Below, piece after piece: positions 4,801 through 15,842 of a stretch of DNA of 45,538 nt (its first letter is position 1; the number at the start of each line of letters is the position of its first letter). Origin of the DNA: Nitrospirales bacterium (GTDB lineage: Bacteria > Nitrospirota > Nitrospiria > Nitrospirales > UBA8639). The position numbers and the translations under genes are program-made. The stretch covers positions 1 through 45,538 of the forward strand of contig JAJDBQ010000208.1 of the NCBI GenBank assembly GCA_029261255.1. Reading direction: 5' to 3'. Below the pieces are notes generated by a model. That model did no database searches, was not told where the DNA came from, and saw only the letters and a program-made list of their open reading frames with translations.

Positions 4801-4990
4801 TCCGACGCCTGCCGTCTGATCCCAGGGAGGGATGCTTCAAAAAATTGGCGGGCCTTGTTTGAGTAAAGCGAGTTGGGCCGCCTACCACAGTCTGGCGTCC
4901 TTCCTCTTTAATGAGTTCAGACGGGGCGTCAATGGTTTTGGATCCTTTTGCCGAAACAAAAGGGCCTCGCCTGCCGGGGCGAAACCCGGC
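4801..4990 (+). repeat. Family B structured repeat, copy B1
   Basis: 190-bp copy in the intergenic stretch 4652-5147, which holds no gene I can support. Order: a TCCGACGCCTGC head; left arm of stem P1, CCGTCTGA (4812-4819); left arm of P2 (4827-4835); left core GGCGGGCCTTGTTTGAG; right arm of P2 (4895-4903); right arm of P1, TCAGACGG (4917-4924); right core with hairpin CCTTTTG-CCGAAA-CAAAAGG; and a last hairpin GCCGGG-GCGAAA-CCCGGC. P1 is 8 perfect pairs. Confidence 0.85.
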
Positions 4991-5147
4991 GACAGAGAAA
5001 AGCCATTTGACCAGAGGGTTGGAAACAGGAGAGCGATGCGGTCACGAGGTAACGCGAAGTTGACGGTAAACATCCAAGAGGGATATTCGAGGCCCATCAT
5101 AAAACTGTAAGGTTTGAACCATAAATTCCGTATGATTCGATTGTATT

Positions 5148-6218
5148 ATGGCTTTCCCCTTTAAAACTAAATCAAAACCCAAATCCTCACTCTTTTTAAG
5201 GCGTGTCGTGTACATGCCTTCGGATTTGGATCCTGTCCGCACGCTGTTGATCAGGCTAGGGATGGTTGTATTCCTCTTTGGCATGTTGATCGGGGTGCTG
5301 TGGCTGGATCGAGAAGGATTGAAAGATCAAAGTGATGGCCACATGTCCTTTCCGGATGTCGTGTATTTCACCATGGTCACGGTCACAACCGTGGGGTATG
5401 GAGATATCGTGCCTGTGACTTCTCGAGCCAGAATGATCGATGCCCTTGTGGTGACACCCGTTCGAATTTTTATCTGGATCCTATTTTTAGGAACAGCCTA
5501 TCAATTGGCGTTAAGACAATTTACTGAGGTATTTCGTATGGCAAAACTTCAATCGAATCTTGATCAGCATGTCGTCGTGTGTGGGTTTGGGCACACGGGC
5601 TATTCCGCCGTCAAAGAATTATTAGCAAAAGGAACCAACGCTGAATCTATTGTGGTCATTGATCCTCTAGATGATCGAGTGCGAACGGCCGTAGAGTTGG
5701 GGGTGGTGGCACTCAAAGGAGATGCGACACAAGAAGGCCTCTTACAGCATGGCGCATTCTTGAGCTGTGCCAAAGCGGTCATTATTGCCGCCGGTCGTGA
5801 TGACTCGAATGCGCTTATCTTATTAACGGTTCGAAATCTCAATACACATTGTCGAGTGATTGTGAGTGCCAAGGAAGAAGAAAATGTGAAACTCTTCCGC
5901 CAGGGTGGGGCCCAAACGATTATTTCTCCGGCCACCTATGGGGGGTATATGTTGGCCGCAGCCGTGGATCAACAATATTTGGCTGATTATTTAGAAGACT
6001 TTCTCACCGTTGGGGGGCAAGTCAATATTGTTGAGCAAACCGTGAAAGATGCAGATGTTGGAAAGACCGCCAGCGATTTGCAGCCAGATGTTCTCCTTCG
6101 AGTCTATCGGCAGGGGACGATTTTATCGCCGTGGGAATTTCAGGATGGGCAGAGGTTGGAGTCGGGTGATGTGATGTTGTTGTTTCGACCGGTTCAGGAA
6201 GAGAAGTCTTCTTTGTAA
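5148..6218 (+). CDS. Two-TM potassium channel with cytoplasmic RCK domain
   Basis: 356-residue inner-membrane K+ channel subunit. TM1 lies at about 33-53, a pore helix precedes the selectivity filter TTVGYGD (about 80-86), and TM2 lies at about 98-121. The soluble part starts with a Rossmann RCK_N/TrkA_N domain (VVVCGFGHTG, about 142-151) and ends in an RCK_C-like region (about 270-350). This is the MthK/Kch-like architecture, a tetrameric channel gated by ligand binding to the RCK ring. The start ATG at 5148 has no strong ribosome binding site; an in-frame ATG at residue 23 (VYMPSD) is an alternative. It follows the SLC13-like gene on the same strand but is separated by repeat B1, so an operon is doubtful. 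Confidence 0.93.
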   Translation: MAFPFKTKSKPKSSLFLRRVVYMPSDLDPVRTLLIRLGMVVFLFGMLIGVLWLDREGLKDQSDGHMSFPDVVYFTMVTVTTVGYGDIVPVTSRARMIDALVVTPVRIFIWILFLGTAYQLALRQFTEVFRMAKLQSNLDQHVVVCGFGHTGYSAVKELLAKGTNAESIVVIDPLDDRVRTAVELGVVALKGDATQEGLLQHGAFLSCAKAVIIAAGRDDSNALILLTVRNLNTHCRVIVSAKEEENVKLFRQGGAQTIISPATYGGYMLAAAVDQQYLADYLEDFLTVGGQVNIVEQTVKDADVGKTASDLQPDVLLRVYRQGTILSPWEFQDGQRLESGDVMLLFRPVQEEKSSL

Positions 6219-6640
6219 GAGCCAGAGAAAAAGAAATGGAGCCCGTTACCATTTTCTTCAGCATTCCGGAATCAACCCTGCGTTTATCCTAAAGACGGCA
6301 GTTGCGCGCGAAAAAGCTGTGCAAGCAATTGATGTGCATAGGAATTTTAAAAATTGCGTGGTCACCTTGTGGATGATGAGTCAATTTTTAAAGTTTCAAG
6401 GTGTGCCGGGTTGTGCAGAGTTTCGTGATCCAACTGCCGTTTTTAGTTTGCTAGGATCCAATACCAAATTATACCTATCTATGGCTATGTATACACAAAA
6501 GTAATAATAAATGGCATGAGTGAAGTATGTATAGTATTTATCTTTTGTTTTCAACACGTTGTGGTGTGATTGTCTATGCCAAACTCACAATGTTGAATAA
6601 GAGAGCTTTGGCAGCACCAACAAAGTAAAACAAGGAAATT
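6219..6640. other. Intergenic region without a supported gene
   Basis: About 420 bases between the K+ channel and the Fic promoter. It becomes AT-rich after about 6430. The one short open frame (6319-6504) lacks a ribosome binding site and any recognisable protein features. It probably marks the left edge of the accessory stretch. Confidence 0.4.
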
Positions 6641-6642
6641 TA

Positions 6643-6671
6643 TATTTTACTTTAACGCGTTAAGGTATAAT
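6643..6671 (+). promoter_or_regulatory. Putative promoter and operator of the Fic gene
   Basis: A perfect -10 hexamer TATAAT sits at 6666-6671, about 26 bases upstream of the Fic reading frame. A perfect 12-bp palindrome, TTAACGCGTTAA (6652-6663), fills the -35/-10 spacer. The -35 region is only AT-rich. An operator placed here would block polymerase, so repression is the likely mode. That reading is inference. Confidence 0.5.
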
Positions 6672-6703
6672 AACTAAATCTATATGCTACTTTAGGAATG
6701 CTG

Positions 6704-7855
6704 ATGAACATTACGGAATTCAAAGCGGGCTCATATAAAAAAGGCTATGAGTACCAGTACTTCCTGCCAGCGAAAATTAATCACCCCTATTACTGGACGG
6801 ATACGGTCATCAATGAATTGCTAGAAAAAGCATCATTGAAATTGGGGGAATTGAATTCCTTTTCCCGGTTTGTTCCAGACACAGATATGTTTATTATCAT
6901 GCATATCTATAAGGAAGCGGTCGTGTCTAGCCGAATTGAGGGCACACGCACTAATATAGAAGAAGCGCTGATCGAAGAGAAGGAAATCGATCCGGAAAAA
7001 CGAGACGATAGGAAAGAGGTCAATAACTATGTCAGTGCAATGAATGCTGCCATAGAGGAGCTTCAAACACTTCCATTATCCAACAGACTGATTAAACATA
7101 CCCACAAGATACTACTGTCGGGTGGCAGAGGCGACCAGAAAAATCCTGGTGAATTTCGGCAATCTCAAAACTGGATTGGCGGAGCAAGTCTTGCGGATGC
7201 AGTCTTCATCCCTCCTGCACATACTGAGCTGCCAGCATTAATGTCTGATCTGGAGTTCTTCCTTCATAAGACCGAGATTCATGTACCGCATTTAATAAAA
7301 ATTGCAATCGCTCACTATCAGTTTGAGACCATTCATCCCTTTCTGGATGGCAATGGCAGAACCGGACGATTGCTGATCACCCTGTATCTGGTCTCCAGCG
7401 GCATTCTCGACAAACCTCTTTTGTATCTCTCCGATTTCTTTGAAAAAAACAAGACATTGTATTACGACAACCTGACATTTGTTCGATCCAAAAATGATCT
7501 TGGGCAATGGATTAAGTTTTTTCTGACAGGGGTGATACGGACGGCAGAAAATTCTGTGGCCACATTGAAGGCAATCACAGAATTGAAATCCTCCATTGAA
7601 AAAGAACGAATCCTTCTAATGGGCAAACGAGCGAAACAGGGAATAGAATTTTTTCATCAGCTTTTTAGAAAACCAGTCGTCACAATCAAAGATGTACAGA
7701 AAATGACTAGTCTGTCTCCTAAGGCAGCAAATGGTTTGGCTAAAGCCTTTGTTGAGCAAAGAATACTGGTTGAAACAACCGGCTATCAGCGCAACAGAGT
7801 GTTTGTATTTAGTGAGTATCTGAAGATGTTCGGAGAGGGAGAAGTCCGCAGATAA
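6704..7855 (+). CDS. Fic-family AMP-transferase, class II, with winged-helix tail
   Basis: 383-residue Fic protein. The catalytic motif HPFLDGNGRTGR lies at about residues 211-222; its His is the catalytic base and the Asp/Gly-Asn-Gly loop binds the nucleotide. An N-terminal inhibitory helix motif, SSRIEG (about 75-80), matches the class II autoinhibition motif (S/T)xxxE(G/N). The last 80 residues look like a winged helix (KPVVTIKDVQKM then SPKAANGLAKAF), typical of the large stand-alone Fic class. The ATG at 6704 is preferred over ATG 6698 because AGGA lies about 7 bases before it. The gene is more AT-rich than its neighbours and is flanked by non-coding repeats, which suggests transfer. The target protein is unknown. 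Confidence 0.92.
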   Translation: MNITEFKAGSYKKGYEYQYFLPAKINHPYYWTDTVINELLEKASLKLGELNSFSRFVPDTDMFIIMHIYKEAVVSSRIEGTRTNIEEALIEEKEIDPEKRDDRKEVNNYVSAMNAAIEELQTLPLSNRLIKHTHKILLSGGRGDQKNPGEFRQSQNWIGGASLADAVFIPPAHTELPALMSDLEFFLHKTEIHVPHLIKIAIAHYQFETIHPFLDGNGRTGRLLITLYLVSSGILDKPLLYLSDFFEKNKTLYYDNLTFVRSKNDLGQWIKFFLTGVIRTAENSVATLKAITELKSSIEKERILLMGKRAKQGIEFFHQLFRKPVVTIKDVQKMTSLSPKAANGLAKAFVEQRILVETTGYQRNRVFVFSEYLKMFGEGEVRR

Positions 7856-8146
7856 AAATAACCCGTGAAAAAGGAAGCGAATGTAGCGATATTGCATCGT
7901 CTACTCTTCGACTTTGGTAAACGTTGGTCTCAACCCGTGGTGCTTCAGAGAGATCAGACCCATAAAAATGTCTGGCAGAGAATGCTATGGACAAGGAATC
8001 TGAAGATGAAGGAATGAGAGAGGAATATGATTTTTCCCAAAGTGGTAGAGGGAAATATGCAAAGTCCTATCATCAAGGCAGTTTTGAATAATACAGATCG
8101 TCAAGAGCACACAGGCCAAGAGTCATGTTACCTATCAGCGGCTTCG
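7856..8146. other. Intergenic region without a supported gene
   Basis: About 290 bases downstream of the Fic gene. The only open frame (from 8027) runs into repeat A2 and has no family features. The rest of the 7856-9117 gap is described separately: repeat A2, two tRNA fragments and repeat B2. Confidence 0.4.
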
Positions 8147-8266
8147 GGGCGGTTCAAAAAAGTCCGTCCAGCAAGGCCACAACCCTATTCCCGCGCGGAG
8201 CGTACACTTCGTACGTGAGCACGCGAAAATGGCGAGAACGCCGCTGGCGGGTTTTTTCAACAGCCC
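8147..8266 (-). repeat. Family A hairpin repeat, copy A2
   Basis: 120-bp copy in minus orientation. The ends are GGGCGGTT and AACAGCCC: seven of eight positions pair, with one mismatch. It has the same internal blocks as the other copies, with central hairpin GTAC-ACTTC-GTAC. Confidence 0.85.
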
Positions 8267-8440
8267 TATCAAGGATCAAATGTGGTGGTATAGGCGCCTG
8301 ATGTTGCAGCACGGTTTCCTAATGCAGAATCAGTGAATCAAGCGCTTCGCAGTTTGGTGAATGTGATGGAGGGGAAGTCGAAGTATAAGTGAGGTACGGT
8401 GTCCGCACTATATCACGGCTCTGTCGTTCAAGAAAAAACA

Positions 8441-8490
8441 GCAAACTCTTAATCTTTGAGTCACAGGTTCAACCTCTGTGCGTCACACCA
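8441..8490 (+). pseudogene. tRNA 3'-half remnant (anticodon CTT?)
   Basis: Begins in an anticodon-loop-like ACTCTTAATC, then a T arm (ACAGG / TCTGT closing the loop TTCAACC) and an acceptor tail GCGTCAC-ACCA with encoded CCA. No 5' acceptor strand (GTGACGC) or D arm is found upstream, and the anticodon stem is mispaired. It is therefore a fragment, not a working tRNA. Such 3' halves are typical scars of integration at tRNA genes. Confidence 0.6.
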
Positions 8491-8565
8491 TCTTAGGCTA
8501 TAGGCCAGCCATTTAAATTTCACTCTATATATTTCAATCGAGCATTCTTTGTCTTGTTGCGAGTT

Positions 8566-8756
8566 GCCGGGTTTCGGCCCGGCAGCCGAGGCCCTTTTGT
8601 TTCGGCAAAAGGACCCAAAACCATTGACGCCCAGTCCGGTAAGATTAAATGAGATGGACGCAGGCTATGTTTGAGTGCGGACCAACTCGCTACGCTCAAA
8701 CAAGGCCCGCCAATAATAAGAGCGTCCATCCCCATGGCCGGACTGCAGGCGTCGGA
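8566..8756 (-). repeat. Family B structured repeat, copy B2
   Basis: 191-bp copy in minus orientation. P1 pairs CAGTCCGG (8632-8639) with CCGGACTG (8738-8745), 8 perfect pairs. P2 pairs GATGGACGC (8653-8661) with GCGTCCATC (8722-8730), 9 perfect pairs. Both cores and the terminal hairpin GCCGGG-CCGAAA-CCCGGC (element strand) are intact, while the stem sequences differ from B1 and B3. Confidence 0.85.
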
Positions 8757-8843
8757 TCATGTCGGGGGACCAACAATTCCGTCCTATTCAAGATGAGAAG
8801 TCGCATGCATAATGAAATATTCTAAAACATGTATTTTTATTAA

Positions 8844-8898
8844 GAGCAGCGGACTCTTAATCAGCGGGTCGTAGGTTCGATCCCTACACGGCCCACCA
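8844..8898 (+). pseudogene. tRNA-Lys(CTT) 3' fragment
   Basis: Reads GAGCAGC, anticodon arm GCGGA-CTCTTAA-TCAGC, T arm with GTTCGATCC, acceptor strand CGGCCCA and encoded CCA. This matches a tRNA-Lys with anticodon CTT from the end of the D arm to the 3' end. The first 20 or so bases (acceptor 5' strand, D stem) are missing, and one pair of the anticodon stem is broken. Likely an attachment-site duplicate left by an integrated element. Confidence 0.75.
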
Positions 8899-9117
8899 AT
8901 ACAATCAACTACTTAGGTCGTCCGCGCCAGCACCCCGTTCGGGGCAAAATCTGTTTTAAACCTGTCTCTGGAAATCGGGCGGCTGCCTTTCCCATTTTCT
9001 CGAATAACGCCATTGGATTTTTGGGGCCATGCGGAAGAGAAAAAGTGGCCTCATTTTCCTGAAAATTGTATCGTGCTACATCCGGTTTTCTGGAGAAGGA
9101 ATTATTATAATGGAGCT

Positions 9118-10578
9118 ATGGAAGAAACTTCTCGCAGTAAAGGGACCACCAAGTCAGAGCGATATTTGGCCCAGCTCGCTGATCGTACCTTTCTCAATCT
9201 CTGGGCATACCCCAATGTGTACCGAGATGGTCTTGTACATGGTCGCCGTGCTGGAAAGGAGCTCTGTGATCTGCTGGTGGTTTGTGGAGACCAAGTCATC
9301 ATTTTTAGTGATAAAACTATCGCATGGCCAAAAAATGATGATGTTAATTTGGCATGGTCACGATGGTATGCAAAAGCAGTAAAAAAATCAGTCCTTCAAG
9401 TTCGAGGTGCGGAGCGTTGGATCAATCAAAACCCAGATCGTCTTTTTCTTGATTCGGCCTGCACAAAAGTTCTACCAATTAAAATACCACCAAGGAATAC
9501 TCGGAAAGTACATGGAGTCGTGGTCGCTTTAGGTGCACACGAAGCGTGTAGTAATTTTTTTGGAGGTGATAGCGGCAGCTTCATGATTCATCCAAGTTTA
9601 CAGGGTGAGGAACACACGAATCTTACCTCTGCAGATTATTTTCCCTTTACTGTTGGGGACGTAGAACCTTCAGGCTCATTCATACACGTTGTGAATGAGG
9701 TTACATTAGATATCCTGATGAAAGAGCTTGATACCGTCACTGATTTTGTGGATTACCTGGAACACAAAGCTGTGTTCGCTCGTTCTGGAAATTTATTTCA
9801 CGCTCCCGGAGAGGAAGAATTACTCGCACATTACCTTACTCATATGGATAATGACCGACATGGATTTGTTCATCCAGAAGATCGCCAGTGGATGCCAGAG
9901 GATAAGTTCCAACTTTCTACAGGTCATTATGTGGGTTTAACAGAACATCCTCAGTTTATTAGGAAGAAGGAAGCAGATAAAAATTCCTATGTATGGGATC
10001 ATCTGATCGAAGCATTTACAAACCCCATGTTGGAAGGAACTACCATCGTCCCAGATGGCAGGCCGGACAATATTGCTCAGATTGAGGTAGGTGTTCGATA
10101 CATGGCGCAGGAGCCTCGAATTATTCGACGACTGTACGGCGAGGCTATTTTAGAAGTGTTACAAGTAGCGAACCAACACGACCGTTATTTTCGATGCATG
10201 CTTCCGAGTCAAGAAAATCCCCGCCATGGTATAGGTTATGTGTTTATGACTTATGCACTTCCAAGAGAAGAGCTTGACTGCAGCTATGAGCAGTATTGCC
10301 AAGCAAGGGCTCATACACTTTATGCATATTGCATGGAGATGTTGAAGAGATGTCGGTGGGTAAAGCGAATCATAGGCATAGCTACCGAACCCCCACCAAT
10401 CTCTGGTGGCGCTAGTGATACCTCGAAAGACATGGGAATGGTAGAGCAACCGACCGAATGGACACCAAAAAGAGAAATAGAGATAGATGAGCTATGCCGA
10501 CAATTAGACATTCTTCAAGAGGACAGACTTCATTTCACCCCTATTGGTTTGGACGAATACCCAAGAGGAGCAAGTTAG
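9118..10578 (+). CDS. Large hypothetical protein, nuclease-like N-terminus suspected
   Basis: 486 residues from the ATG at 9118; an open frame extends upstream to a TTG at 9013, but those 35 codons look non-coding. I do not recognise the family. Near the N-terminus, a block KSERYLAQLADRTFLNLW, then GKELCDLLVVCGDQVIIFSDK and AWSRWYAKAVKKSVLQVRGAERWI, has the pattern of a restriction-endonuclease-like or NERD-like core (an acidic residue on one strand, a hydrophobic strand ending in Lys). The canonical (D/E)xK spacing is not clean, so this is only suggestive. No signal peptide or membrane segment. It sits just after the tRNA remnants, in an accessory context; a defence role is conceivable but unproven. 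Confidence 0.8.
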   Translation: MEETSRSKGTTKSERYLAQLADRTFLNLWAYPNVYRDGLVHGRRAGKELCDLLVVCGDQVIIFSDKTIAWPKNDDVNLAWSRWYAKAVKKSVLQVRGAERWINQNPDRLFLDSACTKVLPIKIPPRNTRKVHGVVVALGAHEACSNFFGGDSGSFMIHPSLQGEEHTNLTSADYFPFTVGDVEPSGSFIHVVNEVTLDILMKELDTVTDFVDYLEHKAVFARSGNLFHAPGEEELLAHYLTHMDNDRHGFVHPEDRQWMPEDKFQLSTGHYVGLTEHPQFIRKKEADKNSYVWDHLIEAFTNPMLEGTTIVPDGRPDNIAQIEVGVRYMAQEPRIIRRLYGEAILEVLQVANQHDRYFRCMLPSQENPRHGIGYVFMTYALPREELDCSYEQYCQARAHTLYAYCMEMLKRCRWVKRIIGIATEPPPISGGASDTSKDMGMVEQPTEWTPKREIEIDELCRQLDILQEDRLHFTPIGLDEYPRGAS

Positions 10579-10675
10579 GCGAAACTGGCAAACGTTCCAG
10601 AAACAGATTTCAAAAAGGTTTTTAATTTGGCGGCGTTATTCTAAATCCTTGCAATAGTTGGCCTTCAAGGTCGAT

Positions 10676-10709
10676 GACCCACTGATTCCGTATCAGCTGC
10701 TCTGACCAT
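10676..10709 (+). repeat. Short intergenic repeat D, copy 1
   Basis: About 34 bases, closely matching 12215-12249 by eye (shared CCCACNGATTC, TATCAG and TGCTCTGA blocks). It lies between the large hypothetical gene and the 102-residue gene. Confidence 0.4.
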
Positions 10710-10833
10710 TATCTTGACCTACCTACCATCATTTTCAACTTCGTCTTCTTCTATTCCGATAATCTCTCCATTACTATTAAGTCAGTCAATTTCTAATTAG
10801 GCATTATCCAATCGAAATCGACCAGGAGAGATT

Positions 10834-11142
10834 ATGACACCATGTGAGTTAGCACCAGAAGATAAGAAGGCTTATGGAAAGGAGGTTGGGGAAATTCTAG
10901 TAAAGAAACACGGAAAGAAAAAGTTCTACTCCCCAGAAGAGGTCAAAACTGCTTCATCACAGAGTCGATCCGCAATGGATTGGCATTGTTGGGCTATGTG
11001 TATCTATACCTCCCCAAGCGACTTTGAGACCTACCATCGCTCAATAGGGGAAACGTGCGACTATGCTTCCATGAAAGCCGACATGACTTCCGCGTTGACA
11101 GATGGAGCATCAGAGTCCTGGTTTGATCTTGATGTTTCGTAG
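10834..11142 (+). CDS. Small cytosolic hypothetical protein
   Basis: 102 residues, no signal peptide, Lys-rich N-terminal half (KKAYGKEVGEILVKKHGKKK), then a conserved-looking WHCWAMCIYTSP segment with two cysteines, and an acidic C-terminus. The ATG at 10834 has an AGGAGAG ribosome binding site about 6 bases upstream, so translation is likely. I do not recognise a named domain. The compact, well-ordered sequence looks like a real conserved protein rather than chance. Neighbours give no functional hint; it is alone between two intergenic stretches. Confidence 0.7.
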   Translation: MTPCELAPEDKKAYGKEVGEILVKKHGKKKFYSPEEVKTASSQSRSAMDWHCWAMCIYTSPSDFETYHRSIGETCDYASMKADMTSALTDGASESWFDLDVS

Positions 11143-11329
11143 TTAGACTGGCCTGATATAGAACTCTCATCTGTATTCGATTTCTTGGACTAACCGGATA
11201 TTATCAACTCACGGCACACTTGACTCCGGCTTCTCATGGCACTGATATCCTAATCTCTGATTTTTCAATGGACTATAACCAGTTGAATGGTCTGTTTCAT
11301 ATTTAATCTTCGATCAAGTGAGACTACCG

Positions 11330-12055
11330 ATGAGAACATTGCAAACAGTCGTGAGACTTTCATGCTCAGCGATTGCCGGATTAATCTGTTATTTACTTTT
11401 TTTCTATCTGTGTTGGCTCGCTCAAGCCGATGCGCAAGGGGGTATCGGACTTGTCATTTATTCTCCGGTGATCGGAGGGTTATCTTTTTTTGCCATTTAC
11501 CTTGTCAAACACTCTAAACCACTTTTCTGGGCGGCGATCGTACTGACACTTCCTATTCCTTTGTTTTATTTTTCCGCATTTACTTCGCTCGGATTTAATG
11601 ATTTTGTCTTTAAAACCGTGGCAGGGATCAGGCAAACAATAGGATGGGTTTCTCCATATGATTGGGGAAGAAAGAACCGGGTCATTCATCTTGCCGCACG
11701 CGAAGGTGACCTATCAAAATTGGAAGAACACGTGAGCGAAAAAAAGAATGTCAACCTAGAAAACATCGGAGGAGAAACCCCGCTGTTCTTTTGTGTTGAC
11801 GGGAATAAGATCAAAGCATGCCAACTCCTCGTAAAATTTGGCGCTAAGGTGAATCACCGGCGAAAAGACGGCAGAACAGCACTGCACAATGCGGCAATAT
11901 ACGATTATCGCATAGAGATCGTTCGCTTTCTGGTTGAGGCAGGGGCGGAGGTCAATGTCAGGGACAAAAAAAATAAAACCCCATTGGGAATAGCAATGAG
12001 CCGCAACGAAGTGGTAATCACAGAGTATCTTAGGGGAATTGGTGCGGAGGAATAG
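11330..12055 (+). CDS. Membrane-anchored ankyrin-repeat protein
   Basis: 241 residues. Three hydrophobic segments occupy about residues 8-30, 38-56 and 64-82, followed by a soluble region with three to four ankyrin repeats: VIHLAAREGDLSKLEEHV, GETPLFFCVDGNKIKACQLLVKFGAKVN, GRTALHNAAIYDYRIEIVRFLVEAGAEVN, KTPLGIAMSRNEVVITEYL. It is likely a protein-binding module presented at the inner membrane. ATG 11330 is chosen; a GTG four codons upstream (11318) is possible, and neither has a strong Shine-Dalgarno. The partner is unknown. Part of the accessory stretch between the K+ channel and the antiporter. Confidence 0.82.
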   Translation: MRTLQTVVRLSCSAIAGLICYLLFFYLCWLAQADAQGGIGLVIYSPVIGGLSFFAIYLVKHSKPLFWAAIVLTLPIPLFYFSAFTSLGFNDFVFKTVAGIRQTIGWVSPYDWGRKNRVIHLAAREGDLSKLEEHVSEKKNVNLENIGGETPLFFCVDGNKIKACQLLVKFGAKVNHRRKDGRTALHNAAIYDYRIEIVRFLVEAGAEVNVRDKKNKTPLGIAMSRNEVVITEYLRGIGAEE

Positions 12056-12214
12056 TCCTCCTTGCCTATCAATATTTTTTGATTCTATTGGCTGCAAGAA
12101 CTATCTGAGATCCTGATCAGGCCAACCACGGCCCATCCAAACAGGTTCTAACGCAGGTTTTTCTCCATCTGTGGATCCCTCAAAGCCTTAACGGATAAGG
12201 AATTTTCTCCCACC

Positions 12215-12249
12215 AGCCCACAGATTCTCTATCAGTTGCTCTGATCCAT
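12215..12249 (+). repeat. Short intergenic repeat D, copy 2
   Basis: Second copy of the motif at 10676-10709. It lies downstream of the ankyrin gene in an intergenic stretch (12056-12649) that otherwise holds only repeat A3 and no gene I can support. Confidence 0.4.
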
Positions 12250-12481
12250 CTCCTCTCCTCTTGGACCGTATTGGTCTTTTGAATGCGATTCCAATTTATT
12301 TTCGTCTTCACTTTTCTCTTCCCTGTTCAAGTTTTTCTTCTCTTTCTGATGCCTGCCTTCTGGTTCTAAGAAGGGACGCCTTTATAATGGGTAGTTCTTG
12401 CTTGAGGTCTTCGACATTGCTCAGGATAAACTCCGCGAGTTGGTCCGTTCTCTACAGGCACGTGGCAGATCAGAGATCTCG

Positions 12482-12602
12482 GGGGCAGTTCAAAAAAACT
12501 CGTCCAGCAAGGCCGCAGCCCTTTTGACGCGCGGAGCGTACGACAGTACGTGAGCACGACAAAATGGCGAGAACGCCGCTGGCGCTTTTTTTCAACCGTC
12601 CC
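12482..12602 (-). repeat. Family A hairpin repeat, copy A3
   Basis: 121-bp copy in minus orientation with all internal blocks. Ends are GGGGCAGTT and AACCGTCCC, which pair less well than the other copies (outer GGG/CCC and inner TT/AA kept). It ends 47 bases before the GTG start of the CPA2 antiporter gene, a placement like that of A1. Confidence 0.85.
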
Positions 12603-12649
12603 GAAGGGTTCTCTTGTCGGGGGGATAGACAATAGATGAGAATCTGTTT

Positions 12650-14374
12650 GTGAATACGGAATATTTGACAGATACGATTGTGTTGTTAGCGGCGGCGGTG
12701 ATTGCGGTCCCGTTGTTTCAAGCGATAGGTCTCGGGGCGATCCCGGGATTTTTGGTGGCGGGGATTGTCTTAGGGCCATCGGGGCTGGGATTTATCGAGA
12801 ATTATGATGAGATTTCGCACCTTGCGGAGTTGGGTGTTGTGCTCTTGTTGTTTGTGATTGGGATAGAAATTAACCCCTCTCGTCTTTGGAAGATGAAGGG
12901 GCTGGTGTTAGGACTGGGCTCGCTTCAGGTGTTCATCACTGGAGGGATACTCACGTTTATTGTCCATGCCACCCTTCAAACTTCGTGGGGAATTTCGCTG
13001 TTAATCGGAGCAGCGTTAGCCCTGTCTTCAACGGCGTTTGTTCTTCAATTGCTCACGGAAAAGAAGATGCTGTCTTCAGAATACGGCAGACCCGCTGTGG
13101 CCGTCTTACTGTTACAAGATCTGGCGGTGGTCCCACTTTTAGCTTTTGTGTCTTTGATGGCCACACCGGAGTTAACCATCGCGGAAGACGTGTTCTATGC
13201 ATTCGCCGAGGCACTCGTTATTCTCGTTCTCATTATTACAATAGCCCGTTACATTTTGAACCCCCTCCTGAATAGACTGGCACGGTTTAGTTCTCCAGAA
13301 ATATTTACCGCATCAGCGCTATTGTTGGTTTTGGGCTCAGCGCAAGTCATGGAACGTATTGGCCTGTCCATGGCGATGGGGGCATTTACTGCTGGCCTCT
13401 TGATTGCTGATTCATCCTATCGCCACCAGATTATTGCTGAAATTCAGCCCTTTCGTGGCTTATTGCTGGGACTGTTTTTTATGTCCATGGGCATGTCCTT
13501 AAATCTCACCCTCTTTTTTGCTAACCCTCTTATCCTTTTAGGTATTGTGGTGGTCTTAATTGCTGGGAAGTTTCTCACTCTGTGGCCTTTATCACGTCTG
13601 TTTGGCATAGAAAACAAGGCATCGATTTCGATCGCCTTGCTCCTGGCTCAAAGTGGTGAATTTGCTTTGGTGCTGTTCGCCTTAGCAAAAGGCGTAGGGC
13701 TTTTAGATGCAACACTATTCCAACATCTTCTGATAATTGTCCTCCTGAGTATGCTGGCCACCCCAGCGCTAGAGAAAGCCGCTTTCCGGATATTTTTCTC
13801 TACTCGTGAAGGGAGCACTCCCATACCCGAGTTTGAAATTGGCAGGATAGAGCAAGACGCCAAGCCCGTCCTTCTTATTGGTTTTGGACGAATGGGCCGT
13901 AAGGTTGGCTTTATTCTGGAGTCGATGAAGGTGCCGTATGTGGCTATTGATGGTCGTGCCGATCTGGTGGATCGCGAGCGCGCAGAAGGGAAACCGGTGT
14001 ATTACGGAGATCTCAAGCGTGCCGAGATTTTTAGGGTGGCTGGGGTTGCAGATGCCCCCCTTGTGATTGTGGCCATTGATAGTCCGGAGGTCTCTGAGCG
14101 AGTGGTATCCTCTCTTCATGCGGCCTATCCAGCTATTCCGATTTTTGTGCGCGGGCATGACATGATGAGATGTCAGGCTCTTAAAGCACTTGGGGCTCAC
14201 TCCACTGTTTCGGAGACCCTGGAAGCTAGCGCAGAACTTGCGCGTGAAGCCTTGCTTCATATGGGACTTGAAGCACCTCAAGTCGAAATGGCGCTGGATG
14301 ACTTACGGAAAGACTATTACGAACGAACCAACCAGGTGAGGGTGGAGAGTAAACCAGGCCCTAATATTCCGTAG
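12650..14374 (+). CDS. CPA2 cation:proton antiporter with TrkA-N domain (KefB/C-like)
   Basis: 574-residue inner-membrane antiporter. The N-terminal 380 residues are a CPA2 transport domain with many helices (GLGAIPGFLVAGIVLGPSGLG, a LALSSTAFVLQLL segment, and GAFTAGLLIADS). It is followed by a Rossmann TrkA_N domain from about residue 403, with nucleotide loop GFGRMG. This layout is that of the Kef K+/H+ efflux family. No C-terminal TrkA_C domain is evident. The start GTG at 12650 has no strong ribosome binding site, but the first helix begins right after it, as expected. Repeat A4 begins one base after the stop codon. Probable role in K+ or Na+ and pH homeostasis. Confidence 0.92.
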   Translation: MNTEYLTDTIVLLAAAVIAVPLFQAIGLGAIPGFLVAGIVLGPSGLGFIENYDEISHLAELGVVLLLFVIGIEINPSRLWKMKGLVLGLGSLQVFITGGILTFIVHATLQTSWGISLLIGAALALSSTAFVLQLLTEKKMLSSEYGRPAVAVLLLQDLAVVPLLAFVSLMATPELTIAEDVFYAFAEALVILVLIITIARYILNPLLNRLARFSSPEIFTASALLLVLGSAQVMERIGLSMAMGAFTAGLLIADSSYRHQIIAEIQPFRGLLLGLFFMSMGMSLNLTLFFANPLILLGIVVVLIAGKFLTLWPLSRLFGIENKASISIALLLAQSGEFALVLFALAKGVGLLDATLFQHLLIIVLLSMLATPALEKAAFRIFFSTREGSTPIPEFEIGRIEQDAKPVLLIGFGRMGRKVGFILESMKVPYVAIDGRADLVDRERAEGKPVYYGDLKRAEIFRVAGVADAPLVIVAIDSPEVSERVVSSLHAAYPAIPIFVRGHDMMRCQALKALGAHSTVSETLEASAELAREALLHMGLEAPQVEMALDDLRKDYYERTNQVRVESKPGPNIP

Positions 14375-14375
14375 T

Positions 14376-14496
14376 GGGAATGTTGAAAAAAGCCACCAGC
14401 GGCGTTCTCGCCATTTTCCCGTGCTCACGTACGAAGTGTACGCTCCGCGCGCGAAAATGACTGCGGCCTTGCTGGGTGACTTTTTTGACCATTCCC
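14376..14496 (+). repeat. Family A hairpin repeat, copy A4
   Basis: 121-bp copy, plus orientation, starting one base after the antiporter TAG. Ends GGGAATG and CATTCCC are perfectly complementary. Because the whole unit folds back on itself, it could serve as the terminator or 3'-end stabiliser of the antiporter mRNA. Confidence 0.88.
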
Positions 14497-14610
14497 GTCA
14501 GCTGCTGACAACACAATTTCCTACAGCATTTCGAGCTATTTTTGAGAAATATTCAACAGCCCCATAGTCCTTTCAGATAATTTTTGTTTTCCCATACAGG
14601 TCTTTTTTGT

Positions 14611-14802
14611 TCCGATGGCTGCAGGCTGGTTATCGGAGAGGGGCGTCTCGTAAGGGCGGGCCTTGTTTGAGCGAAGCGAGTTGGCTCGCCCCACACTACC
14701 TACGCGCCGGTTCCATCATGTCCTAAAACCAGCCTGGGCATCAATGGTTTTGGGTCCTTTTGCCGAAACAAAAGGACCTCGCCTGCCGGGGCGAAACCCG
14801 GC
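14611..14802 (+). repeat. Family B structured repeat, copy B3
   Basis: 192-bp copy. P1 is CAGGCTGGTT (14622-14631) with AACCAGCCTG (14727-14736), 10 perfect pairs. P2 is weaker (GGGGCGT with ACGCGCC). The core hairpin GGTCCTTTTG-CCGAAA-CAAAAGGACC is perfect here, followed by GCCGGG-GCGAAA-CCCGGC. It lies between the convergent antiporter and exporter genes. Confidence 0.88.
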
Positions 14803-14851
14803 AAGGTCATTGAAGAAATCACGATTTTTTAAAATAAGATGTATGACTGAC

Positions 14852-15640: not shown

Positions 15641-15660
15641 TGAAGAAAGTTTCAGCGAGA

Positions 15661-15842
15661 GGGCATGTTGAAAAAATCCGCCAGCCTTCGCCAAGGCTGC
15701 GGCTGACAGGCAAATGGCTCGGTGCCTGCCGAAGCGGCTTCGCATAGGCAGGTCGCCATTTTTCCGTGCTCGCGTACTGAGAGTACTCTCCGCGCGTCAA
15801 AAAGGCTGCGGCCTTGCTGGGCGGACTTTTTTGACCATGCCT
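15661..15842 (+). repeat. Family A hairpin repeat, copy A5, with internal insertion
   Basis: 182 bp instead of 121. The ends GGGCATG / CATGCCT pair with one wobble, a third version of the terminal arm. About 61 extra bases interrupt the block that follows GCCAGC. The insert contains its own inverted repeat (GCCTGCCGAAGC / GCTTCGCATAGGC region). It fills most of the sorB-exporter gap; 15848-15863 adds a small ATTGTC/GACAAT hairpin. Confidence 0.85.

Follow-up and report, generated by a model that had tools for sequence, protein, structure and literature searches.

A repeat family with covarying stems and a near-invariant loop in a Nitrospirales genus: a candidate small mobile hairpin element

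The window analysed here, a stretch of 45,538 nucleotides from a Nitrospirales bacterium, contains three copies of a repeat of about 190 bp in which the arms of a stem differ from copy to copy and are still complementary. The question raised by this locus is what kind of element maintains its pairing in this way. The original prediction took the repeat for an undescribed structured RNA or a mobile hairpin element. That proposal is supported by the present analysis, and its mobile half is the better backed: the repeat is best explained as a small non-autonomous mobile hairpin element that acts through a single folded strand, either RNA or single-stranded DNA (probability about 0.57).

The three copies lie at the positions originally given for them, with their core borders refined as listed in Table 1. 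The arms bracketing the left core are exactly as had been quoted (CCGTCTGA/TCAGACGG, CAGTCCGG/CCGGACTG and CAGGCTGGTT/AACCAGCCTG), as are the arms of a second stem (GAGGGATGC/GCGTCCTTC and GATGGACGC/GCGTCCATC), which is weaker in copy 3. The copies are intergenic, as had been claimed, in that none overlaps any open reading frame (ORF) of 100 amino acids or more. Two parts of the fold had been missed: P1 extends across a TG bulge into a part that hardly varies, which reads GACGCC/GGCGTC (in copy 3, GATGGC/GGCATC), and the innermost stem, P3, bears a conserved loop of 20 nt. The P1a pairing of copy 3 is imperfect and its P2 is weak. For copy 2, the RNA fold of lowest energy keeps P1 and P2 and has a different inner pairing in place of P3. 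Two further claims hold in part. The length of 190–192 bp is correct for the window copies but not for the family, in which the stretch from GACGCC to CCCGGC measures 182–189 nt in 141 of 148 copies; and the two right-core hairpins with a (C/G)CGAAA loop, said to be present always, are found in most aligned copies, with exceptions.

Table 1. Positions in the window of the three repeat copies and their parts
Feature	Position	Strand	Remark
Copy 1, core element (GACGCC...CCCGGC + 1)	4804..4991	+	No element between these two genes in 16/16 relatives
Copy 1, hairpin domain (P1a, P1b, P2, P3 and the apical loop)	4804..4930	+	Fold of 4804-4939: RNA z -5.3, DNA z -3.1
Copy 1, right module	4931..4991	+	Linker AATGGTTTT, H1 ~4940-4966 (loop CCGAAA), TCG, H2 4973-4990
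Copy 2, core element	8565..8753	-	Shared at this locus with relative G007
Copy 2, hairpin domain	8626..8753	-	Fold of 8616-8753: RNA z -5.3, DNA z -5.8
Copy 2, right module	8565..8625	-	Contains H1 and H2
Copy 3, core element	14614..14803	+	Absent in 3/3 relatives having both flanks
Copy 3, hairpin domain	14614..14742	+	Fold of 14614-14746: RNA z -2.6, DNA z -2.2
Copy 3, right module	14743..14803	+	Contains H1 and H2

A BLAST search of the host genome (4.36 Mb in 251 contigs, 88% complete) gave at least 42 matches, and 40 of 89 candidates were scored. The stretches fetched from this genome contain at least 44 copies of the form seen in the window (type A) and seven copies of a second form (type B), which has the right module of type A and a different hairpin, together with three distinct group II intron junctions and two loose pattern matches that look like chance. 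Among the loci viewed in this genome, no copy was seen to carry a gene of its own.

A consensus was derived from 80 copies, hand-chosen among the 143 non-redundant ones of 162. Its P1 consists of P1a (GACGCC/GGCGTC), the TG bulge and P1b, with about nine variable pairs; P2 has about eleven variable pairs around GGACGC/GCGTCC; and P3 (GCGGGCC/GGYCCGC) carries the loop TTGTYTGAGCGNAGCGAGTT. The hairpin is followed by the linker AATGGTTTT, by H1 (stem end CTTTTG/CAAAAG, loop CCGAAA), by TCG and by H2 (GCCGGG/CCCGGC, with a loop that is mostly NCGAAA), and a final A closes the element. The loop and the right module are its most fixed parts. To the left of the core, which is about 190 bp long, there is a pyrimidine-rich stretch, and a leader of about 65 nt is recognisable on this side in 18 of 172 copies, compared with one right flank and no shuffled sequence in the controls. 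An outer stem joining the left and right flanks was considered and rejected, as the flanks pair no better with each other than with shuffled partners (mean of 148 copies, -15.65 versus -15.93 ± 0.32 kcal/mol). The neighbouring genes of 116 copies show no preference in orientation, the upstream gene being on the same strand in 58 cases and on the opposite strand in 58, and the downstream gene in 51 and 65, respectively. When ORFs of at least 110 amino acids are called mechanically, 26 of 125 copies overlap one, and the term 'intergenic' is therefore strictly shown for the window copies only.

The pairing of the arms is maintained throughout the family. In the 80 copies, 92.6% of the 3,909 pair cells are paired, and two-sided changes are seen in 34 of the 49 pairs. 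The number of cells with two-sided changes is 254, against a mean of 72.6 ± 7.2 in shuffled alignments (none of 500 shuffles reached this value) and 33–80 when the partners are slid by 1–3 columns. On a tree of 155 of the 162 copies (seven were dropped), 126 double changes that keep a pair fall on the same branch (P1a 3, P1b 26, P2 25, P3 15, H1 43, H2 14), while slid partners yield 0–8 such changes per helix and 0–6 in P1b. Independent variation of the P1 arms in further copies, which the original prediction had named as evidence against itself, was not found; the arms covary over the 155 copies. A covariation test had also been proposed, and its outcome is divided. The pair counts are far above those of the shuffles, but in a self-made R-scape-like test (a G-test with APC and a tree-based null) 1 of 12,561 column pairs has E < 0.05. 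Helix pairs make up 13 of the 20 top-ranked column pairs in this test. The element does possess the covarying helices expected of a structured RNA, with a weak signal against the tree-based null, and its fold is preserved through paired changes.

Which strand is folded may be judged from the kinds of change. A Watson-Crick pair that changes on one side only becomes G.T in 174 cases and A.C in 100 (p = 9 × 10-6), and G.T leads in all six helices. In the 59 unpaired columns used as a control, C-to-T changes also exceed G-to-A changes per base, and this half of the G.T excess, which is not specific, may therefore be mutational. The clear part of the strand signal is the ratio of A-to-G to T-to-C changes, which is 66:128 in unpaired columns and 35:18 in paired ones. 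In the variable arms, the counts of G.T and A.C cells are nearly equal (38 and 30 in P1b, 97 and 87 in P2). The written strands of copies 1 to 3 fold with energies of -63.0, -61.8 and -56.8 kcal/mol, compared with -46.3, -59.5 and -49.8 kcal/mol for their complements, although in copy 2 the z-score of the complement is the more extreme (-6.4 versus -5.3). The tip of the element has the consensus GCGNAGC, which matches the d(GCGNAGC) mini-hairpins, whose GNA loop on two G-C pairs is extraordinarily stable in DNA according to the available part of PMC4686876; that part describes no function of such hairpins in repeats, and among the readable element loops just 86 of 157 are GNA (110 of 157 are NNA). 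RNA folding gives the loop an alternative pairing. Because of this pairing and the limited share of GNA loops, both RNA and single-stranded DNA are kept as candidate forms.

The history of single loci bears on mobility. At the site of copy 1, between a CitMHS-type and a TrkA-type gene, the element is missing from all 16 relatives in which both flanks are present, and copy 3 likewise differs in presence at a fixed locus, as is expected of a mobile element; by parsimony, copies 1 and 3 are gains in the lineage of the window. Copy 2 and its counterpart in G007 have flanks that are 80–81% identical and right modules that are 98% identical, and their hairpins are 70% identical, with matching changes in the arms. 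None of 148 copies shows a target duplication within 5 nt of its core borders; in copies with a leader, the left border may be farther out than that of the core. In the one interrupted paralogue seen (L132/L021), the insert has a sharp right end, 1 nt after CCCGGCA, while its left end precedes GACGCC by 66 nt, and the letters GGCA stand at either end. With these 66 nt included on the left, the case is not a clean empty site bounded by the core on both sides, and no such site was found.

Related copies were compared in 20 pairs, hand-picked and partly overlapping, among the pairs listed. Random pairs of hairpins are 70.8% identical, with a 95th percentile of 80.8. The hairpins are 86–95% identical in 14 of the 20 pairs, in 13 of which they exceed the right flank, and 70–78% identical, within or near the random range, in the remaining six, though flanks or right module match there. 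In L062 and L113, for example, the flanks are 74 and 79% identical, the hairpin 91% and the right module 97%. The conservation of the hairpin in the 14 pairs exceeds what is expected of a dead mobile element, and it counts against the mobile reading.

Copies are also exchanged. In one metagenome-assembled genome (MAG; OFTM76), the duplicated loci L135 and L163:5327 have flanks that are 86–88% identical and elements that differ, their hairpins being 75% identical, as in random pairs. At 96% identity, the L135 hairpin matches the one at L163:1298, where the flanks differ save for a few tens of nucleotides on the left. Whole elements are thus exchanged between loci at their borders or within about 10 nt of them. 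Ectopic gene conversion is the simplest cause; that the exchange can be plain RecA gene conversion counts against the mobile reading. Two other observations concern the arrangement of copies. In one genome, a type A locus (L036) and a type B locus (L051) have their right flank in common, which suggests a swap of hairpin form at one locus or a duplicated locus; and one element at L155 corresponds to two in tandem at L176, by tandem duplication or deletion.

Matches to the element occur in 31 of 59 genomes, which comprise all 20 genomes of the genus (the host included) and 11 of the 16 from other genera of the family. Three of these 11 have only one or two weak matches, five of the 16 have none, and none of the 23 genomes from other families of the order is matched. 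All but one of the 77 named stretches belong to Nitrospirota MAGs, under labels such as Nitrospirales, Nitrospiria and Nitrospiraceae. The sole named match outside the phylum is in a record of 'Marine bacterium B5-7' (L161), for which transfer or a binning error is possible.

The loop has a wider distribution. Taken alone, TGTYTGAGCGNAGCGAGTT is present in 18 of 295 Nitrospirota genomes, 11 of them in the host's family (the host included) and seven across five other families, and the reversed pattern, used as a control, has no match in the 295. In the families f31 and f33 the loop sits atop a long hairpin with unrelated stems and is followed by hairpins like H1 and H2; f15 has such a long hairpin without the trailing ones; and for f22 (G116) inspection by eye gives a 10-nt arm with a single mismatch, which the fold did not return. 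Among viral contigs, 87 stretches bear the loop, of which 80 were analysed as loci and fall into 18 clusters. The median number of spanning pairs at these loci is 9, versus 6 with swapped flanks, and 20 or more pairs are present in 26 of 80 versus 6 of 80. By eye, the architecture is seen in the provirus clusters L189 (12 members), L190 (5) and L188 (2) and in several singletons. The largest provirus cluster (36) and others are without it, and the loop is therefore present in other settings too. In that cluster (L237, 36 provirus contigs) and in L241, L265, L294 and L302, the 19-nt loop stands without a long hairpin, for example beside AAGACCCTAGA..GATCTTA. The exact pattern of the right module is in no viral contig.

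Outside these data, L189 partly matches records of Pasteurella multocida (46% of the query at 77% identity), in a stretch between dapF and a DUF484 gene in which the loop differs, and one unannotated Pseudoalteromonas record (25% of the query at 83%). Plasmids gave no match to type A, type B or L188, nor did phages and Escherichia coli genomes to L189, the sole query used there. The Haemophilus intergenic dyad sequences, thought to matter for the mobility of gene loci in the available part of PMC4144887, may already have described one branch, a comparison made by description alone and prompted by the architecture of L189 and its partial match to P. multocida. Tentatively, and at less than even odds, these loci may be read as a cross-phylum class of mobile hairpins, unnamed in the literature searched, that is set by its tip, a near-invariant 19-nt loop on lineage-specific stems, read by a putative enzyme. 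Most of the branches seen would add a trailing hairpin of the TACTTTT..AAAAGTA type, and the lineages would have rebuilt the stems by paired mutation.

Several other repeats and insertions adjoin the element. At L045 (~130-2008, contig C236 of the host genome) the linker is interrupted at CCAAAACCA^TTGACG by a group II intron, which lies on the opposite strand and has a reverse transcriptase with a maturase domain. This locus shows the two junctions of the intron, and the same right-module junction is found at L043, L044 and L048 (L043 and L044 are identical in letters). The element is here the target of the intron and not an intron itself; no intron family matches it, and a separate 'type C' form was rejected in favour of this insertion. 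A 'type D' form was likewise rejected, being some insertion within type B: two type B elements (L033 and L051, on contigs C71 and C209 of the host genome) are interrupted at contig ends by an insertion that may be IS110-like, to judge from a short N-terminus; the 74 amino acids available have no match in Pfam. At L022:2168-2410, L037, L047 and L115, about 210–240 bp to the left of type A copies are common to the loci and contain TGTTACAT repeats, and another small repeat tends to adjoin the element at several type A loci. The window also contains other repeats of 160–200 bp (14375-14564, ~15660-15840, 6288-6450 and 8074-8274) with several matches in the host genome or in relatives. The genus is dense in short intergenic repeats.

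A mobile element is preferred because the presence of the repeat is specific to a lineage, the distribution of the loop is scattered, and the copies show no preference in orientation. The same facts weigh on the idea that the family is a structured non-coding RNA in many copies that serves the cell, for example by binding a protein via the invariant loop, and that was amplified in the lineage and selected at each locus. Hairpin and right module are often better conserved between related copies than the flanks are, as in L062/L113, G.T is favoured over A.C, and the RNA folds have z-scores of -5.3, -5.3 and -2.6, all of which would suit such an RNA; yet the copies have no preferred orientation or gene arrangement, are gained and lost between species, are patchily spread (11/16 genomes of other genera in the family and 0/23 of other families in the order) and match nothing in Rfam, where the whole window scores with 0 of 4,227 families at the gathering score and six loci (type A, type B and intron-bearing) give, at E ≤ 1, nothing but the group II intron and a single match to a microRNA (E = 0.45). 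This explanation is considered somewhat unlikely. Unlikely, too, is that the arms are kept complementary by template switching of replication within the hairpin (quasi-palindrome correction), by which covariation would need no function. Two-sided changes from one Watson-Crick pair to another are indeed common (121 on the tree), and the near-equal G.T and A.C cell counts of P1b and P2 also speak for such a process, but it leaves the fixed loop, the fixed right module and the scattered spread unexplained, and the change counts favour G.T in every helix, with A-to-G versus T-to-C reversed relative to unpaired columns.

As a mobile element the repeat could belong to a known type. That it is a DDE-transposon MITE whose terminal inverted repeats are the P1 arms is hardly credible: the hairpin domain is indeed bounded by these arms as an inverted repeat, and in the single interrupted paralogue L132/L021 the letters GGCA are found at each end of the insert, but the conserved element runs about 60 bp past the right arm, and the 148 copies are without target duplication within 5 nt of their core borders. 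ERIC, NEMIS, RUP, BOX and Correia sequences are non-autonomous, foldable intergenic repeats of 100–250 bp. Set beside these by their familiar descriptions, the element is similar as a small MITE-like repeat, and it differs in that no target duplication was found at the core borders and in having a fixed loop that recurs across lineages on unrelated stems. With REP/BIME sequences it shares intergenic location, high copy number, hairpin form and the lack of an own gene, and the absence of target duplication at its core borders would also fit movement by a RAYT or another Y1 (HUH) transposase. Y1 genes (PF01797) occur in 44 of the 59 genomes, and copies in genomes without them could be relics. 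Nevertheless, four genomes that bear the element (G018, G022, G029 and G031) have no Y1_Tnp match, including G018, a single contig of completeness 100 with 14 element matches and 101 first-look candidates, and Y1/RAYT is therefore rejected as an obligatory partner. Moreover, REPs measure 20–40 bp and carry a GTAG or CGTC tag, the CGTC families being without a known dedicated transposase (PMC3733652, in its available part), whereas the element measures about 190 bp and has a three-part hairpin, a near-invariant loop of 19–20 nt and two extra hairpins. A REP/BIME-type origin is thus improbable. Among the open PubMed Central papers listed in text searches, none describes the family, matches to the letters of the loop or right module being judged irrelevant from titles and the openings of abstracts, and two genome papers on Nitrospirales (PMC10579370 and PMC12342949) do not mention such repeats, one 'repeated' in PMC10579370 being unrelated. 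The family is placed among the small non-autonomous hairpin repeats, a known kind of element.

The mobile hairpin element preferred here might operate in the following manner. The loop and the trailing hairpins would form a handle that is recognised on a single strand, which may be single-stranded DNA at replication or a transcript, by a candidate enzyme supplied in trans. The enzyme would insert the folded strand, ectopic gene conversion would then reshuffle the copies, and the stems could drift freely provided that their pairing persists.

Short intergenic hairpin repeats occur in very many bacteria, and the movers of most of them are not known. A fixed loop that recurs on unrelated stems in distant lineages offers a direct handle for fishing out a loop-binding protein. 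The family itself amounts to a set of natural paired-change experiments in living genomes, and it could serve to test whether covariation in repeats means RNA function, recognition of single-stranded DNA or replication error.
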